From: Gordius sp. MW1 | Lineage: Eukaryota > Nematomorpha > Gordioida > Gordea > Gordiidae | Reading direction: 5' to 3' | Length of the DNA: 64,000 nt | Assembly: GCA_964036665.1 (NCBI GenBank) | Contig: OZ038527.1 | Coordinates: 19,242,221-19,306,220 of the forward strand | Shown: in pieces, positions 15,003 through 40,614 of the stretch | Layout: the number at the start of each line of letters is the position of its first letter | How positions within the stretch are numbered: the first letter of the stretch is position 1 | The notes under the pieces: model-generated | What the model saw: the letters and a program-made list of their open reading frames with translations, nothing else | Databases searched by the model: none | What the model was told of the DNA's origin: nothing | Position numbers and translations under genes: made by a program

Positions 15003-16125
15003 TTTAATTGCTATGCAATTTATGGGCTCGTTTTTTGGTGTCCGTCCGTCCGTCCGTTGTATCCTCCCTATCTATTTGCATTGGGTATATTAGGTTATCG
15101 CTTTTTTAAATTAATGCATGAGAAAGAGGTGCCCCACCCCTCATCTCTATCTCCCTCGCTGTGTTATTTTTTAAATTAATGCATAAGAGGTGCCCCACCC
15201 CTCGTCTCTATCTCCCTCGGTGTGTTATATATAAGATTTGTTAAATTATCTATTATATAATAAACATAAATAAAAGTTGTTTACTTTTAATTGCTATGCA
15301 ATTTAACTAGTTATATAATAAACATAAATAAAAGTTGTTTACTTTTAATTGCTATGCAATTAAACTAGTTTTTTAGTTCGAATCCCGGAGTTTTTTTGAC
15401 TCTTATGATTGTTCTTGTTACTATCATTGATAATAAGAATTTTTGGCCGTCCGCTGGCTCCTGACCGAAGGAAAAAATGACCATTGGCCGAAATGTGAAT
15501 CGAAATTATTTTTTTCGTTTTTTTTTACTATTATGATTGTTCCTGTTCCTACCATTGCTATTATGACTTTTTGGCCGTCCGCTGGCTGCTGACCAATGTT
15601 ATATAATAAACATAAATAAAAGTTGTTTACTTTTAATTGCTATGCAATTTAACTAGTTTTTGGGTTAGAATTCCGGAGTTTTTTTTGACTCTTATGATTG
15701 TTCTTATTACTATCAATGATAATAAGAATTTTTGGCCGTCCGCTGGCTCCTGACCGATGGAAAAAATGACCATTAAATGTGATTCGAAAATTTTTTTTCG
15801 TTTTTTTTGACTATTATGATTGTTCCTGTTCCTACCATTGCTATTATGACTTTTTGGCCGTCCGCTGGCTGCTGACCAATGGAATAAAATGACCATTGGC
15901 CAAAATGTGATTCGAAAATTTTTTTTCTCGTTTTTTTTGACTATTATGAATTTATATCCACTTTTACCGTGTCCTGGCTGCTGACCAATGGAAAAAAATG
16001 ACCATTGGCCAAAATGTGCATCAAAAGTTTTTTCCCGTTTTTTTGGCTATCATTGACTTATAGAGTATCTGTTGGTACTGACCAATGGAGAAAAAATGAC
16101 CATTGGCTAAATTTTTGATTTTTTT
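15003..16125. repeat. Clustered repeat array with B-box-like GTTCGAATCCCGG
   Basis: Recurring modules are TTTAATTGCTATGCAATTTA (near 15003, 15285, 15347 and 15632), TTTTGGCCGTCCGCTGGCT followed by TGACCAATGGAAAAAA and ATGACCATTGGCC (at least five times to 16105), and GTTCGAATCCCGGAG. Two 60-bp direct copies of GAGGTGCCCCACCCCTC.TCTC lie at 15126-15230. The same modules build the cluster at 53.86-55.35 kb. CCAATGG…CCATTGG is itself a short palindrome. No coding frame; the many short frames are shadows of the repeat. Confidence 0.75.
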
Positions 16126-17524: not shown

Positions 17525-19258
17525 ATGAAATTGAAATCTCCTCCACTTAGGACAGCATATCATGATTTTGGGCTCACTAGAGATCATTCAAGAATGAAAG
17601 ACAATTATAAAAGAGACAATTCTGAATTCACAAAGATTGACGCTAAGACTAATTTCACACCAGAAAATATGTATAATATAAATGAGAATAATATATATGG
17701 ACAATTATATGTTGATTCAACTTTACCCGCAAGGCCTGTTAATCAAAACCCTCTTTACAAACCACATGATATGACTGGTACTTTAATGCAATTCAATCAT
17801 GGAGGCAGTTTAGCTAAACTTGAAGATAGTCATTATGCCATGACGACCGACTTAGATGATGTAAACGATTACGGAAATAACCGAAGCAGTTCGGAATTAT
17901 TACCTTGGTGGTCAGATCATGGGGGAACTTTGCCTTCTCGGACTCTAAATCAACAGCAAATTATAGGGGGACCAATTAGTGACGACATCAATCCTATACT
18001 TAATTCAGCTAGAAGCGCACTTGGGGATAGCCAAGATATCAAACATCCAACAAAAGTACATAGGGAAGCTTCCATATTTATTTGGCTAGTTAGTTGGTTA
18101 GCACAATGCATGCTACTGTTCACGGTTTTAGTGACGAGCATTACTCCGATGCCTTGGCTAGTGGGTGATAATATCTTAAGTCCGGGGTCTGTAATTGGTG
18201 GTTTATGGGGATTTTGCACATCTGGATTCAGAATAAACGACATCGGAGCCAATCTGGCATTGTCTAAACCTCACTGCTTCGTATTCAATCGCGAAAATGA
18301 GGCTAACTCCCTATCGATGCCTTCATTTTGGACTTGGGTTATAACCATATTTAACTTCCCTTTCTTAGTAGTCTCCCATTATCACATGCTCGGAGCTTGG
18401 TTGTGGTGCATAGCATTAACATTAAATGCTTGTGGATTTATAATCTTTGTGCTCGTGTACTTAGGCGCACTGTGGTCGCTACCTAAACTTATGCAAAATT
18501 ACATAAATTTTAAGGCACGACCCAATCAACCGGTACAAAATAATAACACAAAAAATCCTAATCAATGGCACCTAGAGCAAAAAATTGGTATAAACCTTAA
18601 AATTTCAATGCAAAGTATTCCATTTCGCGTCAATAAATATCTTGTTGTTTTTGCTGGATATTTTAACTTAATAACAGGTAAAGTTTTCCTAAAAATTTCA
18701 ATCCCCAATTTAAAGACTATTTATATGGCTATTATTAACTTTTATTTCAATGAAAGTTTAAACATAAATAAATTTTAGCAATTCCTATGACCTTCTCATG
18801 TTTACTCTATCCATTGAGTTGGAACAATGAGGCATTGAAGATAGTTTGTGGGAAGAGGATGAAAGCTTATAGTTTAGGAGATTGCTCAATGGGGCTTGGA
18901 TTTTACCTAGCTCTTTTGTGTATACTAAATGCTATTGCTCTCGGATCGCTAGGGATATGTTTAGCAAACAAAATTCCTCAATATCAAAGTGCTACTAAAT
19001 TTAGGCTGTCCAAAAAATATACAAGTAATTATATCGTTATTTACTATTTAAGGTTATAAAATGTTTGTTATAGACAGCAAGAAATACTGGAAAACCGAAA
19101 ACGAAATTTTGTCATACAATTTTAGCGATGAAGTCGTTTACCGGAAACCTCAGATAAATGGATCTAAATCGATATTTGACAATGATAAATCTATATATTC
19201 CTATCTACCTTCTAGTTTTAAAAACGACAAAAATGGATACAGCTTAAAAACCTCTTAA
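17525..19258 (+). CDS. LHFPL-family tetraspan membrane protein with long N-terminal extension
   Basis: Three exons with agreeing phases: 17525-18677, 18779-19024, 19074-19258, giving 527 residues; the second intron is only 49 nt. Four membrane segments are visible: about 183-206, about 285-318, about 370-395 and one ending near ICLANK. The first extracellular loop has GGLWGFC (Cys 231) and PHC (Cys 251). The best family match spans the second loop and last helix: YPLSWNNEALKIVCG and YSLGDCSMGLGFYLALL against FPDGWDADTVRDMCG and YSLGDCSVRWAYILAI of LHFPL3/4/5. In vertebrates these proteins serve the hair-cell mechanotransduction channel (LHFPL5) and inhibitory synapses (LHFPL4). Members are usually about 220-250 residues. 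Here a hydrophilic N-terminus of about 180 residues, a longer loop (about 319-369) between helices 2 and 3, and a C-terminal tail are added. A stop codon lies directly before the start Met. Confidence 0.85.
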
Positions 19259-24099: not shown

Positions 24100-25120
24100 C
24101 TTCTTCTTCTTTATCGTGTTGAAAATCCCACAGACGTGGGGTAGGTTTTCAGTAGCCTCTTCCATCTGAGTCGCGTACATGCCATGCCAATTTCCATCTG
24201 TTTGACGTCCATATCCTTTTCGACCAGTCGTTTCCAGGTGGCACGTGGTCTGCCCCTTCCTCTTCTTCCAGGCACGTCCATCTCCAGCGTTCGCCGTGTG
24301 ACATCGTCCTCGTCTCTTCGTAATACATGGCCGTACCACCGCAGTCGATTTTCTCTTAAGAAGTCCTTCGTCGCTTGTATACCCATCTTTGTCATCAAGG
24401 ATTCGTTCGTCATGCGATCCAGCTTGGTGTAGCCTAAGCTCCATCGCACCATTCTCATTTCCGTGGCTTGCAAGAGTTTCTCCTCCGCGGTGGTTACAGC
24501 CCATGTTTCGCTCCTTTAAAGCAAGACCGGTCGCACGATGGTTTTGTACGCCTTGCTTTTCAACCAAATTGGTATCTTTTTGTCACACATGACACCGGAG
24601 ATGCTGCGCCACTTGAGCCATGCTTTCTTGATCCGAGAATGGACTTCGGCGGTACATCCTCCCTCTTGATGTAATAGCGAGCCAAGATATGTGAACTTAT
24701 CAACCTCCGTGTACATTGGACCGTCATTTTTGTGCATTTGCGGACTACCGCCCATCATTTGCATGTAAACCGTTTTCTTCTCGCTGACCTTTAGACCGAA
24801 TTCCGAAAAACGTTCTGACCATTTTTTCGCCTGATGAAAAACCCCTTCTCTTGTTTCATCGCATAGGACAATATCATCGGCATATAGCATAGTCCAAGGG
24901 GCTGGCTTGTGCAAGTCCTTTGTTATTGTATCCATAATTAGATTAAACAAGAATGGGCTTAACGCTGACCCTTGATGTAGTCCAATCATTATTCGGAAGG
25001 GTTTCGTTTCTCCTATGGTAGTCCTAACAGATGCAACCGCGCCATTATACATTTCCTTGATAAGTCGAACATATCCTTCGGGTATATTTCTGGCTCTAAG
25101 GGACCACCATATTAAGTCTC
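24100..25120 (-). mobile_element. 5'-truncated RTE-type LINE, younger copy
   Basis: A minus-strand reverse transcriptase fragment begins within NVTRDLIWWSLRARNIPEGY (near 25117) and carries GLHQGSALSPFLFNLIMD, motif C YADDIVLC, and the C-terminal RLRWYGHVLRRDED and GRRGRGRPRATW segments typical of RTE elements. One stop codon follows RPVLL (near 24516) where relatives read on into SETW. The 3' tail is GATAAAGAAGAAGAAG. GGGTTACATT is duplicated exactly at 24090-24099 and 25121-25130. The copy is far less decayed than its host element and was truncated at its 5' end on insertion. Confidence 0.9.
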
Positions 25121-25515
25121 GGGTTACATTAAGGAAGTGAAATATAGGAATTTAGGTCCACTAAAGAAAAACTATTACATGCCACGGAGATGATAATTAT
25201 GCGGTGTAGAGTATACCAAGCTTGACCATTTGACAAATGACAGTCTCAGTGCAAAACTGGTAATTCAACCTATGGCGGACTTAATTAACGAAAATCGGCT
25301 AAAATGGTATGGTCACTAAAAAGAGAGACGGATATAAAACGAAAAGAATTAGAAATGGAGGAGCTGGGGAAGAGAGAAGAGGACGACCTCGTGTATTTAG
25401 GAAAGGGCATGTACACAAAATTATAAAAACCTAAGAAGATAAAGGACTTGGCCTTTACCCAATCAAAATAAACGCTAGGGATGTGGTACTTAATATATGA
25501 TAAAGAAGAAGAGAA

Positions 25516-31456: not shown

Positions 31457-32494
31457 CTAGTCTATTGTCTTGGAGTTACATTTCTGCTTCTGCATACGAT
31501 GTTTTAGCCTATAACATAAAAAGGTTAAAAAAGACTTAGGAAAAAGTTAAGTAGATTTAAAATTTAAGCTTTTAATTATTAATACCTTATAAAAAAATTA
31601 AAAAAAAACGAATTAAACGTTTTTGCTATACTACCTTATATTTTCTTTTTCTAATTGGTCATTGATCTTATTGAGAAGAGAAATCGTGAGCTCATAGTCG
31701 TATTTTTGTGCTCTTAACATATCTACTTCTTCCTGTAAAAGCTTTGATCTCGAATTTAGCATAGTAATTGCAATGCAATTATCAAAAAGCACTTTATCTT
31801 TCGCCTCTTTTAGTATTAAGACTTTGTTCAATTCTTGCCTAGTTTTATTTAGGGTACTACTCTCATTCGATAAAATGTTCTCGAGTTCTTTTATTTTACC
31901 ATCTTTTGCATTTAACATTGTGTTCAACACATCTAACCTACTTTGAATGTTTAGGTCGTCATTGAATTTTGGGATTTGATCAGAATCTTTAATTCGAGAT
32001 TCAAATTCATTAAATATAGTTTCCTGACGCTGAATAAATTGGTTAATTAAGCTTATACCCGGTGAAGAGTCTTTAACTTTATATTTATCCTTGAGTCTTT
32101 CATGCTTGACAATTATTTTCTTTATAGCCACTACTGTATAAAATTCTAAGCGTGAATTATTAAGGGTTTTTTCAATCTCACCTATGGTATTTTCGTTTAG
32201 CATCAAATAAGTAATAAGATCCCGTACTTTCACATGTAAACATTTCCTCGATTTTTCAACGAAGTCAGCAAGCTGATCTTTTGAGGTTGATTGGATACTT
32301 TTCTCCCTCCCTGATAGGCTTTGTATTGATGAATAACATGAAGACTTATTTATAAATGAACTACTAAACGATAAGTTAGACAAGCTATTAGTCAAGGCAG
32401 GTTCCATATAAGTTTCAATGTCATATGATGCAATTAGAATGTAAATAAGGCGTTCTAATTTTAAAGTATCAAACTCACATTTATCATTAAACAT
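31457..32494 (-). CDS. Coiled-coil protein of unknown function
   Basis: Two exons, 32494-31635 and 31508-31457, joined in phase (AG|G), give 303 residues. The N-terminal 60 residues are mixed and Ser-rich (NSLSNLSFSSSF). From about residue 75 the protein is helical with heptad-like leucines, clearest from about 195 (RLDVLNTMLNAKDGKIKELE) to the C-terminus (LEKENIRLKHRMQKQK). No catalytic motif, signal peptide or membrane span is seen, and I do not recognise the family. Its start codon is 63 bp from that of the divergently transcribed creatine-kinase-like gene, so the two may be co-expressed; if that gene is sperm- or cilium-related, this one may be too (inference). Confidence 0.7.
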
Positions 32495-32557
32495 AGCTTA
32501 AGTCAGATTTCACAGTAAATGTAGTTTTGTCAGAATAAATAATCGATCAACTTTAAT
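32495..32557. promoter_or_regulatory. Probable bidirectional promoter, 63 bp between start codons
   Basis: The interval between the ATG of the coiled-coil gene (minus, 32494) and the predicted ATG of the creatine-kinase-like gene (plus, 32558) must hold, or overlap, both 5' UTRs and core promoters. No TATA box or other motif is convincing. If the plus-strand micro-exon is wrong, the gap extends only to about 32628. Confidence 0.5.
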
Positions 32558-35500
32558 ATGACACCCTCCTTGTTTCCGTAAAACTATAAGAGTAAATTAT
32601 AATTAATTTAATTCACTTATAGTAATAGTAAAGTTCAGACCCCAAGGATCAAATTTACGTTTCCACTCCCAGATGGCGCCGATAACGTCTTAAGCAAGGT
32701 GCTAAATCCTACCTTATACTCCAAATATTGTGATTCTATGACTAAAAATGGGCATACTTTAGATTGCTGCATACAAACTGGTGTAGATTATCCACATATC
32801 AAAGACCAAAGACTTCCATGTATATCTAGTTACTAACGAAATATAATTTAATAACTACCTTTAAAATTTAGGTATACTGGCTTATGAGAGAGATTGTTAC
32901 TACAAGTTTTCCGAAATTTTTGATGCCATGATAAAATGCTATCAGCCAAACTTCCAACCAAATTTGGATAATAGACCCAATTTAAACCCTACTCCCTTTA
33001 GTGCAATTGAGGATTTAAACAGTGACAAATTTAGTAATACAAGATTGTACGCTTACAGAAATATAAGCGGTTTTCAATTTTTGCCTGGCTGCACTAGGAA
33101 AGCCCGACGCGAGATTGAAAGCATAATTACGCATGCTCTTAACAAGTTGGGGTCACCATATGAAGGTAATCAGATATTGGATGCCTAATTTTTACTTTGT
33201 TGCAAATGTCTATATCGTGGGTATAAAACAAAACTATCAATTTCGTTGTTAATTTTAAAGGAGGTGCATTTTTATTGATCATGTATGTTTGCTTATTATT
33301 TAAATGGCATAGGAATAATAGTTAATGCGCCGGTTATATCTCAAATTAATTTCAAATAATAAAATCAAAAAAGCTATTTATTGGCTAAATCCTGTTAAAT
33401 TACTATATTTGAATTAGTATTTAGGTGTTATTATCTAATCTAAATGTTTGCAATAAATAACAATACGCGAAGGTACATATTATTCGATGTTGGGGCTAAC
33501 GAGTGAAAATGAAAATCTATTGGAAAGCTGCGATGTGCTCATAACACGACCACCATACGTGTATGACAAATGTCTCACATCAGCAGACTGGCCAGAATCG
33601 CGTGGTATATGGCTAACCAACGACAAAACCATTGCTGTATTAGTTAATGAACTGGAGCACCTTAAAATCGTATCTCTTAAAGGAGGTACTATATATAATT
33701 TAAGATTTAACCAAATTCCTTAGCACAGATCATATAATTTATTTGCATAAAAGTCCGGTAAGGCCCAAATATTATTTAAAATATATAAAAATTCCCAATT
33801 TTTTTTAAAATTATGATGCATATAACAACCTTGCATTAAAAAACTCCCCGACAGACCCCTTATTCTCAACTCATTTAATGCAGCCTTACAATAATATTAA
33901 TGAGTTAAATTGAAAGGTCATTTCAAGAAGCCTAAATAAGCTCTGCACGAACAACCTATATTAGGTTTAAGTAAACGTTATGTCGGGAATAATTGATACT
34001 GATCAAAAAAGATAAGTTGAAATGCTATACCTTAAATATACTCTACACAATTGGCAAAAATTAAATATTTGTTTTGCTAATATAGAAAAAAAAATTATTT
34101 TTGCTTCCATACAAAGTTCGCTGCTAAAAATGGAGTTTTAAGAATTATAATTTAAATATTAATTTAGAAAGCAAATTAAATTTGTTGGTTTTGTTCTTTA
34201 CTTGGTCTAAGGGTTAATAGAAACTTGCTAAAATTTAGAGTAAAGATTGCCGGTATTTTACTTTGTCAAACCTCGCCTAATTAAAATGAATCTATCTTGT
34301 TCCAATTATAGCCATCTATATCCGCCATGATATGTATAATTAAGGTTTTTGTTAGTCTGTGTTTTTTTTAGTGATTTAGAGTTCCTTCTTGTAATTTATA
34401 ATAATAAAAGTCTATATACAACAAACATCGCAAAATACTTTTTATAACTCATTATATCTATTTAGAGTTAAGGTTTCAGGATATGTTTCGGAACCTGTGC
34501 AACTTTTTGAAGCAGCTTGAAAATAGCCTATTGGAATTAGGGCATTGTTACGTATGGAGTTTTTCCCGCGGTTTTATGGTATCCAATCCTTGCTACATAG
34601 GGAATGCCTTTGTGTGTGAAACATTGTTTAACCAAGACTCCCTGCCTCAAATGGAGGTGGAAGATTTGGAATCTATCTATATTTCCAACATAGATACTGA
34701 CAAATACAAATTAGTTTTCGATACTTACGACCAAAAAATTCGTATTCAAAGCTTACCGGTTTTTGGGGTAGGTGAGGTGGAACAATTTTTCCAATTTCTT
34801 AAGTTTTTGGTCCAAATATCACAAGCGGATACCAATGTGTCTAATACCTCCAACGTTAAAATAAAGCTAAACGAAAACAATGTTTTGGAATTTCCGCTAA
34901 TGGTTCGTCAAAAATGTATTCTGTCTAAAATACTGACTCCAACACATTGTTTAAGCCTCTACGAACGAGGTTCTGATCTCTATGACGAATTACTTACCAT
35001 GATTGATATAGGTATAAAAGACATTGAAAATCTTTCTTTATACCCTGATGGATTGATATGTGTCAACCATCAGTCTTACGAGAAGTTTGATTCCATCCTA
35101 AATGCTATTCGCAGCGAAAATGATCGTACTAGTTATAGATTTTGGAAAAGTCATGAAACATTGACCAATTTTGATACGCCTAAATTCCCGTTTGACGAAT
35201 TCATTTCTGATTTTTTCATCATGACAGCACTTAATATAACAACAAAGAACTTCGTTCCTTTTTGTAACCTGCCCGACATTTCATCAATACTACAAATCAA
35301 CAAAGTCGCATTTGCTACTATGGAGCCAAAATTTAAGGGAGAATTTTATGATTTCAATTCACGCCAGGTGCCAGAAATTAACGATGCGCGAGTCATGTCG
35401 CTGCTATATCCATCTTGGGATTCTTCAAAATCATTTTTTAGGCATTGGCCAAACGGCAGAGCTTTTTGGATTTCCAAAGATCGATCTTTTTTGTGTTGGA

Positions 35501-37263
35501 TTAATGAAACAGATCACATGAAATTTTTCGCTTTCGCAAATGACGCCGGAATCCTCACTTTGTGGGACAAGTATATAGTTTTCATTGAAGCATATAGAGA
35601 TGCTATGGTAACCGCTGGTATAGAATACACGGACCGTACTACTTTCACTACTCTTCTCCGTCCAATAAATCCATTCCATTTGGGAGCAGTCATAAGTACT
35701 AAAAATGAAAACTTAAATTACCTCAAAAATTTATTAACCCTTACCGGGTTCCAAATAGTCAATTTGCGCATTACCGAATCATCTGTAGAATTATGGGTAA
35801 TCCATATAAAGGATAGCACCGCAGACATTATAGGTGAGCATAAAGCGTCGGAATCTGTGGGTGATATTATGCGAGAAACCTTTTTAAACGAAATCAAAAT
35901 TTTGATGTCCAAAATGTCATATTTGCGGTTTCTCATCAAGCATAGTCATGAAGATATTGTTTTAGACGACGCCTTTAAGGAGCTAAAAATATTGGTTGGG
36001 AAAGAGGACTACAATTATCATGATTCAGGGGGCCAAGGTTCACCATCAATGATTAAATCGATCGTCTCTCAAACTTTTACAAATTACCCATTTTTTTTAA
36101 AAACAGCAAATGTCAATATAGCCTCATGTTTAACACCTGATATGTATGCCATATTGTCCGAATACCGAACGGCTCAAGGGTTTACTTTAGATGATTGTAT
36201 TCGAGTAGGATGCGATAATCAGGATAAACACATAGCCGGAATGATAGCTTTGGATGAGGAGTGCTATGACCTTTATGGTGATTTAGTCGATTGCCTCATT
36301 CGCATGAGAAGCAAATCGCGCTCTCTCCATCACGTGATTCACGAAATTTCATACTTCCCTGAAATAGCTGTTAGCCTCGATGATCAATACGTTTACCATT
36401 TAGAACTAGGACTGTTCCGAAATTTGCAAGGTTTTCCATTGGTGGCTGGTTGCAATTTGCGACATTTAACCCAGGTAGAAGATCTATTTCTAAAAGCCCT
36501 AAATAACACAAGACTCTTGACGGGACAGCCGAATAACGATTATCGTATTAATAAAAATTATACAAGTTTAGAATTGATTTCGGAAGAAGAGGAAACCAAC
36601 ATTCTAAGTGAATTTTATGAGGCACCTAATTCAATTATATATTTTTGTCCGCAACTCAAACTATATTGGCCTCGTTTTCGTGGAAAATGGCAGCAAAATG
36701 AACAATTATCGCCTACAGCCGTTACAGATAATGGTTGTGAAGTAAATAATTATCCAAATAGACGCTGTGGAACTTATTTTTTGAATGTAATTGATCATTT
36801 CCAAGCTTTTTGGACACTGGACAATAATAACGTGTGGTGTCAATTTCATGAAATATACACCACTTTGCAAGAATTGGAAAGATCTTTGGCCACATTAAAT
36901 CATTCATTCATGAAACATCCTAAATATGGGTATGTTACCACTTGTCCAATTAACCTAGGGTCAGGGGTGAGCATCAAGATACGTTATAAATTGCCAAATC
37001 TTTTGGGCACTGCCAACCTTAACGGATCAAACAATAATACATCAGCTTTTGTATCGGCAAAACAAATTATAAACAATTATAATTTACGCATTATAAGTTA
37101 TGACGATGTAACCTTAGAAGTCGTAACCTCATCTTGTTATGGTTACTCCGAAATAGAGTTATTGCAGCAAGTTATCGATTGCACCAAAGATCTCATTAGA
37201 AAAGAAATAGAATTAAAACTTGCATCTCAAAATAATATTAATACGGTCAAAAATGACGAGTGA
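32558..37263 (+). CDS. Three-domain creatine-kinase-like protein, flagellar type, catalytic residues eroded
   Basis: Exons 32558-32577, 32629-32819, 32872-33165, 33473-33685 and 34466-37263 agree in phase and encode 1,171 residues, close to the size of sea urchin flagellar creatine kinase (three fused kinase domains, about 1,174). Domain 1 (about 7-360) shows VLNPTLYSKY, CCIQTGVD, CTRKARREIE, DWPESRGIW and NELEHLKIVSLKGG, all typical of creatine kinase. Domain 2 (about 361-750) has KILTP, HWPNGRAFW and NETDHMKFF. Domain 3 (about 780-1171) has LTPDMYAILSEYRTAQGFTL and GYVTTCPINLGSGVSIKI. Creatine kinase needs Cys in CPSNLGTGLR and several nucleotide-binding arginines. Domain 1 reads NPCYIG and domain 2 FHLGAV there. 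Domain 3 keeps the Cys (about 1066) but has Ser for the Arg, and YHLELGLFRNL replaces the STRVRTGRS-type motif. All three look inactive as phosphotransferases. The 20-nt first exon is the least certain part. Confidence 0.85.
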
Positions 37264-39861: not shown

Positions 39862-40614
39862 TATGTATGTATGTATGTATGTATGTATGTATGTATGTAT
39901 GTATGTATGTATGTATGTATGTATGTATGTATGTATGTATGTATGTATGTATGTATGTATGTATGTATGTATGTATGTATGTATGTATGTATGTATGTAT
40001 GTATGTATGTATGTATGTATGTATGTATGTATGTATGTATGTATGTATGTATGTATGTATGTATGTATGTATGTATGTATGTATGTATGTATGTATGTAT
40101 GTATGTATGTATGTATGTATGTATGTATGTATGTATGTATGTATGTATGTATGTATGTATGTATGTATGTATGTATGTATGTATGTATGTATGTATGTAT
40201 GTATGTATGTATGTATGTATGTATGTATGTATGTATGTATGTATGTATGTATGTATGTATGTATGTATGTATGTATGTATGTATGTATGTATGTATGTAT
40301 GTATGTATGTATGTATGTATGTATGTATGTATGTATGTATGTATGTATGTATGTATGTATGTATGTATGTATGTATGTATGTATGTATGTATGTATGTAT
40401 GTATGTATGTATGTATGTATGTATGTATGTATGTATGTATGTATGTATGTATGTATGTATGTATGTATGTATGTATGTATGTATGTATGTATGTATGTAT
40501 GTATGTATGTATGTATGTATGTATGTATGTATGTATGTATGTATGTATGTATGTATGTATGTATGTATGTATGTATGTATGTATGTATGTATGTATGTAT
40601 GTATGTATGTATGA
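39862..40614. repeat. (TATG)n microsatellite, about 188 uninterrupted copies
   Basis: About 753 bp of perfect tetranucleotide with no visible interruption. All three plus-strand frames and some minus-strand frames are open through it, giving chance frames of 250-350 codons (MYVC or IHTY repeats). These are artefacts. The assembled length may differ from the true length. Confidence 0.98.

Follow-up and report, generated by a model that had tools for sequence, protein, structure and literature searches.

A putative catalytically dead three-domain creatine kinase shared by two hairworms

We describe a gene of the hairworm Gordius sp. MW1 that, on balance, appears to derive from a three-domain creatine kinase (CK) and to encode a pseudoenzyme, kept in hairworms after its activity was lost. 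The gene lies at positions 32558-37263, on the + strand, of a 64,000-nucleotide stretch of contig OZ038527.1 (C1:19242221-19306220; hereafter the window, to whose start all window positions are relative), in a genome of 211.8 Mb in 12 contigs. Its predicted product has three tandem kinase-like domains, each missing most of its catalytic residues, and a second hairworm, Gordionus sp., has a counterpart (P0001) broken at the same catalytic places. Membership in the phosphagen (ATP:guanido) kinase fold family is apparent both from Pfam and from the fold of CK and arginine kinase (AK). The long open frame matches ATP-gua_Ptrans (PF00217) and ATP-gua_PtransN (PF02807) above curated cut-offs; domain 3 by itself matches both families, and domain 2 by itself matches PF00217 at 34.5 bits, with PF02807 not found. 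At 1165 amino acids, the model lies within the 1116 to 1233 spanned by 19 three-domain CKs from named animals, 17 of them labelled flagellar, so that it has the flagellar CK design of three contiguous domains in about 1120 to 1230 amino acids, as the first-pass annotation of the window had proposed.

The state of the active sites was read from eight catalytic residues, R130, R132, E231, E232, R236, C283, R292, and R320 in rabbit CK numbering. Roles of the CK arginines named in PMC12467219 are as given there, and those of the other residues are as generally understood. Domain 1 retains R130, within NTR in exon 3, and E231, which is Asp in Gordionus. Its changes, given as Gordius/Gordionus where the two differ, are R132 to Tyr/Ser, E232 to Leu/Val, R236 to Lys, C283 to Asn, and R292 to Val; those at E232 and R236 lie in the motif NELEHLK (window 33646-33666, + strand), and NPCYIG (34585-34602, + strand) stands at the place of the CK motif CPSNLG, with the Val at R292 farther on. 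In domain 2 (34852-36012, + strand; residues 363-749), E231 is the sole catalytic residue retained, with R130 changed to Phe, R132 to Met, E232 to Thr, R236 to Lys, C283 to Asn/Lys, and R292 to Ser/Asn, and no CPSN block appears in the alignment. Domain 3 (36013-37260, + strand; residues 750-1165) retains only C283, in both species, within CPINLG (36943-36960, + strand), the sole CK cysteine block left in the protein; GSGVS follows and places Ser at R292 (Gln in Gordionus). ELGLFRNL (36403-36426, + strand) occupies the place of CK SRVRTGRS, with R130 changed to Glu and R132 to Gly/Ser, and the other changes in this domain are E231 to Val, E232 to Ile/Gln, and R236 to Gln. At R320, no domain offers a corresponding Arg under either of two alignment modes, and the outcome from R130 to R292 is identical under both. 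The first-pass annotation had pointed to these four motifs, to the Ser at R292 in domain 3, to the missing cysteine block of domain 2, and to the breakage of all three sites, and the alignment bears it out, restoring the full catalytic cysteine and arginines in no domain. Neither hairworm protein thus has the eight catalytic residues per domain of a flagellar CK, a loss that would imply loss of activity.

It seems improbable that the protein instead still works as a phosphagen kinase of altered chemistry, through a rebuilt site in domain 3 (around C283) or domain 1 (around R130 and E231). C283 is present in domain 3 of both species, the NEEDH motif keeps its His in 6 of 6 domain copies and its Asp in 5 of 6, and the model of domain 3 is CK-like, but four or all five nucleotide-binding arginines, together with E232, are gone from each domain in both species, no counterpart of RGTGG can be aligned, and of 333 domain copies counted in relatives, 323 keep all eight residues. 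The relatives are the 120 top-ranking of 358 matches from a separate search for CKs, and the sample therefore leans to intact proteins; 347 domain copies had been aligned, from which 14 under 300 residues long were removed, including those of P0001, none of whose domains is in the count of 333. The ten altered copies belong to P0017 (four copies), P0063, P0080, P0101, P0119, and P0120 (two copies).

The gene model has five exons and 1165 codons with one terminal stop, and its four introns (69, 52, 307, and 780 nucleotides) are all GT-AG. Exon 1 (32558-32577, + strand) is present in the model only; it holds the start codon and MTPSLFP, and its GT donor is in frame with the acceptor at 32646. 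The ATG at 32558 chosen at first pass as the start accordingly joins the rest in frame through the 69-nucleotide intron. Exon 2 (32647-32819, + strand), flanked by splice sites, encodes the N-terminal part of domain 1, with a guanidino-specificity stretch of CK length, and contains a PF02807 match at C1:19274901-19275017 (window 32681-32797). Domain 1 continues in exon 3 (32872-33165, + strand; 59% identity with residues 3-103 of P0001) and exon 4 (33473-33685, + strand; 43% identity with residues 102-173), the latter matching PF00217. Exon 5 (34466-37263, + strand; 47% identity with residues 176-1091) holds the end of domain 1, the whole of domains 2 and 3, and the stop codon in a 951-codon open frame, within which the 926 uninterrupted codons reported at first pass run from the ATG at 34483 to the stop at 37263. 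In 300 first-order Markov simulations of the long exon, 926 codons held a mean of 56 in-frame stops and a minimum of 36, against 0 observed, which argues that the long open frame is not due to chance. The protein has a calculated mass of 134 kDa and no long hydrophobic stretch (highest 19-residue hydropathy 1.0), as expected of a soluble protein.

When the 926-residue frame was searched against 5.8 billion proteins (8000 candidates scored), it returned one match, the 1106-residue P0001; such searches depend on shared 5-residue words and can miss distant relatives. Domain 3 of P0001 as the sole query matched nothing but itself among 1223 candidates. The two proteins have the same architecture, although the predicted P0001 starts about 60 residues later, perhaps through a truncated gene model. 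They are identical at 513 of 1069 aligned positions (48%) and similar at 725, with 158 of 302, 172 of 383, and 183 of 384 positions identical in domains 1, 2, and 3. Sister domains within the window protein are 12.5 to 20.2% identical, compared with 64.8 to 83.5% in 12 intact three-domain CKs. Since orthologous domains are far more alike than sister domains, the three domains would have diverged before the split of the two hairworms and been maintained since. At the active sites, the two worms are identical at 26 of 39 positions, 16 of them in a common non-CK state; a second alignment mode shifts one position in domain 2, giving 25 and 15. Relative to the whole-protein rate, this sharing is a modest excess (P = 0.014 or 0.032, depending on alignment mode).

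A conserved open frame, together with catalytic loss common to a second species, is what is expected of a pseudoenzyme under selection, and a counterpart at 48% identity with the same broken sites supports the suggestion made at first pass that the frame is selected. Pseudogene decay, with the frame open only by accident in this assembly, would account for the broken sites and for the strong divergence (identity to 36 CK domains is 16 to 28% on average and 31% at best), but no stop interrupts the 1165 codons, where simulations expect some 56 in 926 of them, and the architecture and the derived states at the dead sites that recur in Gordionus make this explanation highly implausible. The best reading is a pseudoenzyme that predates the divergence of the two hairworms and may have been retained for binding or as a scaffold.

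There is no sign of a second copy in the genome, where P0001 matches only three stretches of the gene (four candidates scored), apart from one weak exon match of 20.8 bits at an AK locus. Profile scans with the two Pfam families, which score the best candidates only, found two phosphagen-kinase loci above cut-off: the pseudoenzyme gene and this AK locus at C1:27432419-27437021, which has all eight catalytic residues intact and encodes an ordinary AK. At C1:22289967 there is a further match that, at 19.7 bits, falls below the cut-off. Two N-terminal-domain exons at the AK locus (C1:27432419 and C1:27434197) match the same part of the profile, a pattern that either alternative first exons or a second domain would give.

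Comparison with known kinases makes it likely that the gene's origin lies in CK, probably in flagellar CK. Against profiles built from the 19 three-domain CKs, domains 1, 2, and 3 of the window protein score at best 168.7, 58.2, and 125.8 bits, compared with 109.8, 42.2, and 69.1 bits against a nine-row profile of AK and taurocyamine kinase (TK; five rows without the N-terminus) and 112.5, 36.9, and 86.9 bits against a five-row one (four full-length krill rows). The Gordionus domains score 156.3, 53.3, and 128.8 bits against the CK profile, and 123.8, 34.8, and 86.0 (nine-row) and 117.1, 32.5, and 92.9 (five-row) against the AK/TK profiles. Among solved structures, the best CK reaches 147, 53, and 102 bits for the three domains, versus 80, 34, and 41 for the best ordinary AK. 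In domains 1 and 2, the specificity stretch is as long as in CK.

Hairworms reportedly lack most ciliary genes. Tektin, PACRG, IFT46, and radial spoke families had no match in the genome, in a comparison with no ciliated control genome; tubulin gave 15 matches in the same genome. Across 14 control genomes, PACRG, IFT46, and radial spoke were likewise without match, and tektin gave sub-threshold matches only. These absences are consistent with lost cilia and speak against the ciliary role floated at first pass, which we regard as unlikely; a role in sperm may be possible. On the side of creatine, AGAT, a member of PF02274, makes the creatine precursor. The ADI/AGAT family had no match in the genome, with a positive control in three prokaryotes.

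Several points weigh against a dead descendant of flagellar CK. In structural modeling, a check proposed at first pass, the predicted local distance difference test score (pLDDT) is 62 to 64 for the whole protein and below 50 in the C-terminal third of domain 2; the fold predicted for domain 3, which fills the PDB fold-search lists, is CK-like. The C283 of domain 3 in both species makes weak or altered activity conceivable, and the ciliary negatives come without a ciliated control, in searches that can miss exon-split genes. As to origin, the dimeric AK 3ju5, presumably from a sea cucumber, scores 114, 31, and 70 bits for domains 1, 2, and 3, nearer the CK values, and two-domain AK/TK chains (4rf6 and 4wo8) top the PDB lists of all three domains by summed score. 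In domain 3, the specificity stretch is three residues short of CK length, close to the four of AK. A free maximum-likelihood tree of 61 domains, 36 of them from 12 of the 19 CKs, groups the six hairworm domains beside AK, with very long branches. Placements constrained to CK, to AK, or between the two all fall within the approximately unbiased (AU) confidence set, whether in a fast run on three domains with poorly optimized constrained trees or in a slower run on domains 1 and 3. Fourteen CK/AK diagnostic columns are split, with 18 CK and 9 AK states over the six copies.

The shortened stretch of domain 3 and the joining of the three hairworm domains near AK could also be explained by an independent triplication in hairworms, from CK or from their own AK, followed by loss of activity. 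Nor is the best-matching position in the 19 three-domain CKs domain-specific, with positions 1, 2, and 3 matched best in 6, 6, and 7 of the proteins by hairworm domain 1, in 3, 8, and 8 by domain 2, and in 7, 3, and 9 by domain 3. However, the grouping in the tree is expected from the long branches (stems of 1.3, 4.3, and 1.9 substitutions per site), CK outscores ordinary AK for each of the three domains, the specificity stretch of domains 1 and 2 has the length seen in CK, and the three-domain design and length match flagellar CK; we consider such a triplication unlikely. Reference domains are often homogenized within species (the three CK domains of Nematostella group together), which blurs any domain-by-domain correspondence with flagellar CK.

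By profile score, the closest known family is three-domain flagellar CK (sea urchin, Chaetopterus, Ciona, Nematostella, and others), with the same three tandem domains, length, and both Pfam domains. The hairworm protein differs in its far less similar sister domains, in lacking catalytic residues in all three domains, and in belonging to an animal in which four ciliary families gave no match. Two-domain AK/TK (Anthopleura 4rf6 and Schistosoma 4wo8) has the contiguous-domain design in common but only two domains, motifs that are intact in the stretches shown, and a weaker per-copy match than CK to domains 1 and 3. The multi-domain CK-like P0063, P0120, and P0017 lack catalytic residues in some domains, as the hairworm protein does: P0063 in the third only, P0120 in the second and third, and P0017, the nearest parallel, in all four listed copies, each keeping 4 to 5 of the 8 residues, which could be real or an artifact. 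These three proteins raise the possibility that dead domains are commoner in multi-domain CKs than thought. Knowledge of three-domain flagellar CK goes back to the enzyme of the sea urchin (Wothe et al. 1990, cited in PMC5473427). Among the matches listed, judged partly on title and the start of the abstract, none describes a conserved phosphagen kinase that is fully dead, and the library searched contains no paper joining Nematomorpha and CK. The three-domain flagellar CK is thus itself known, and its pseudoenzyme form appears to be new.

Elsewhere in the window, a 288-codon coiled-coil-like frame (31631-32497, - strand) stands head to head with the gene described here, with about 60 bases between it and that gene's modelled start; the two possibly share a promoter. 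A perfect TATG tandem array of 188 copies (39862-40613) gives long spurious open frames on both strands, and a reverse transcriptase fragment (24516-25151, - strand; RVT_1 at 62 bits) represents a retroelement remnant. Overlapping tandem repeats with periods of 58, 61, 122, and 289 bp occupy 15102-15949, and a 417-codon open frame (17525-18778, + strand) matches no Pfam family and, judged by eye, contains several hydrophobic stretches. No Rfam family reached its gathering threshold anywhere in the window.

The ancestor of the pseudoenzyme may have been the flagellar CK of an animal that still had cilia and creatine. The creatine substrate system and cilia would later have been lost, the few searches made having found no sign of either. 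Freed from catalysis, the three domains could have diverged into separate binding surfaces, and the protein might now act through binding, either as a scaffold with three lobes or as a regulatory subunit, while the ordinary AK would handle phosphagen turnover; that AK and muscle would be the first places to look for a binding partner. More tentatively, with a little less than even confidence, we suggest a phylum-wide pseudoenzyme, in which an ecdysozoan lineage retained flagellar three-domain CK past the loss of cilia and creatine phosphorylation and the three dead domains became distinct binding modules of a structural or regulatory protein. The gene hints that the ecdysozoan ancestor had a flagellar CK, though arthropods and nematodes are known for AK only, with no CK known from them. 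Phosphagen kinases are strongly conserved, and a three-domain member that is dead at every site yet conserved, in a phylum reported to have lost cilia, would offer a natural way to ask what use a metabolic enzyme retains once its chemistry is gone.
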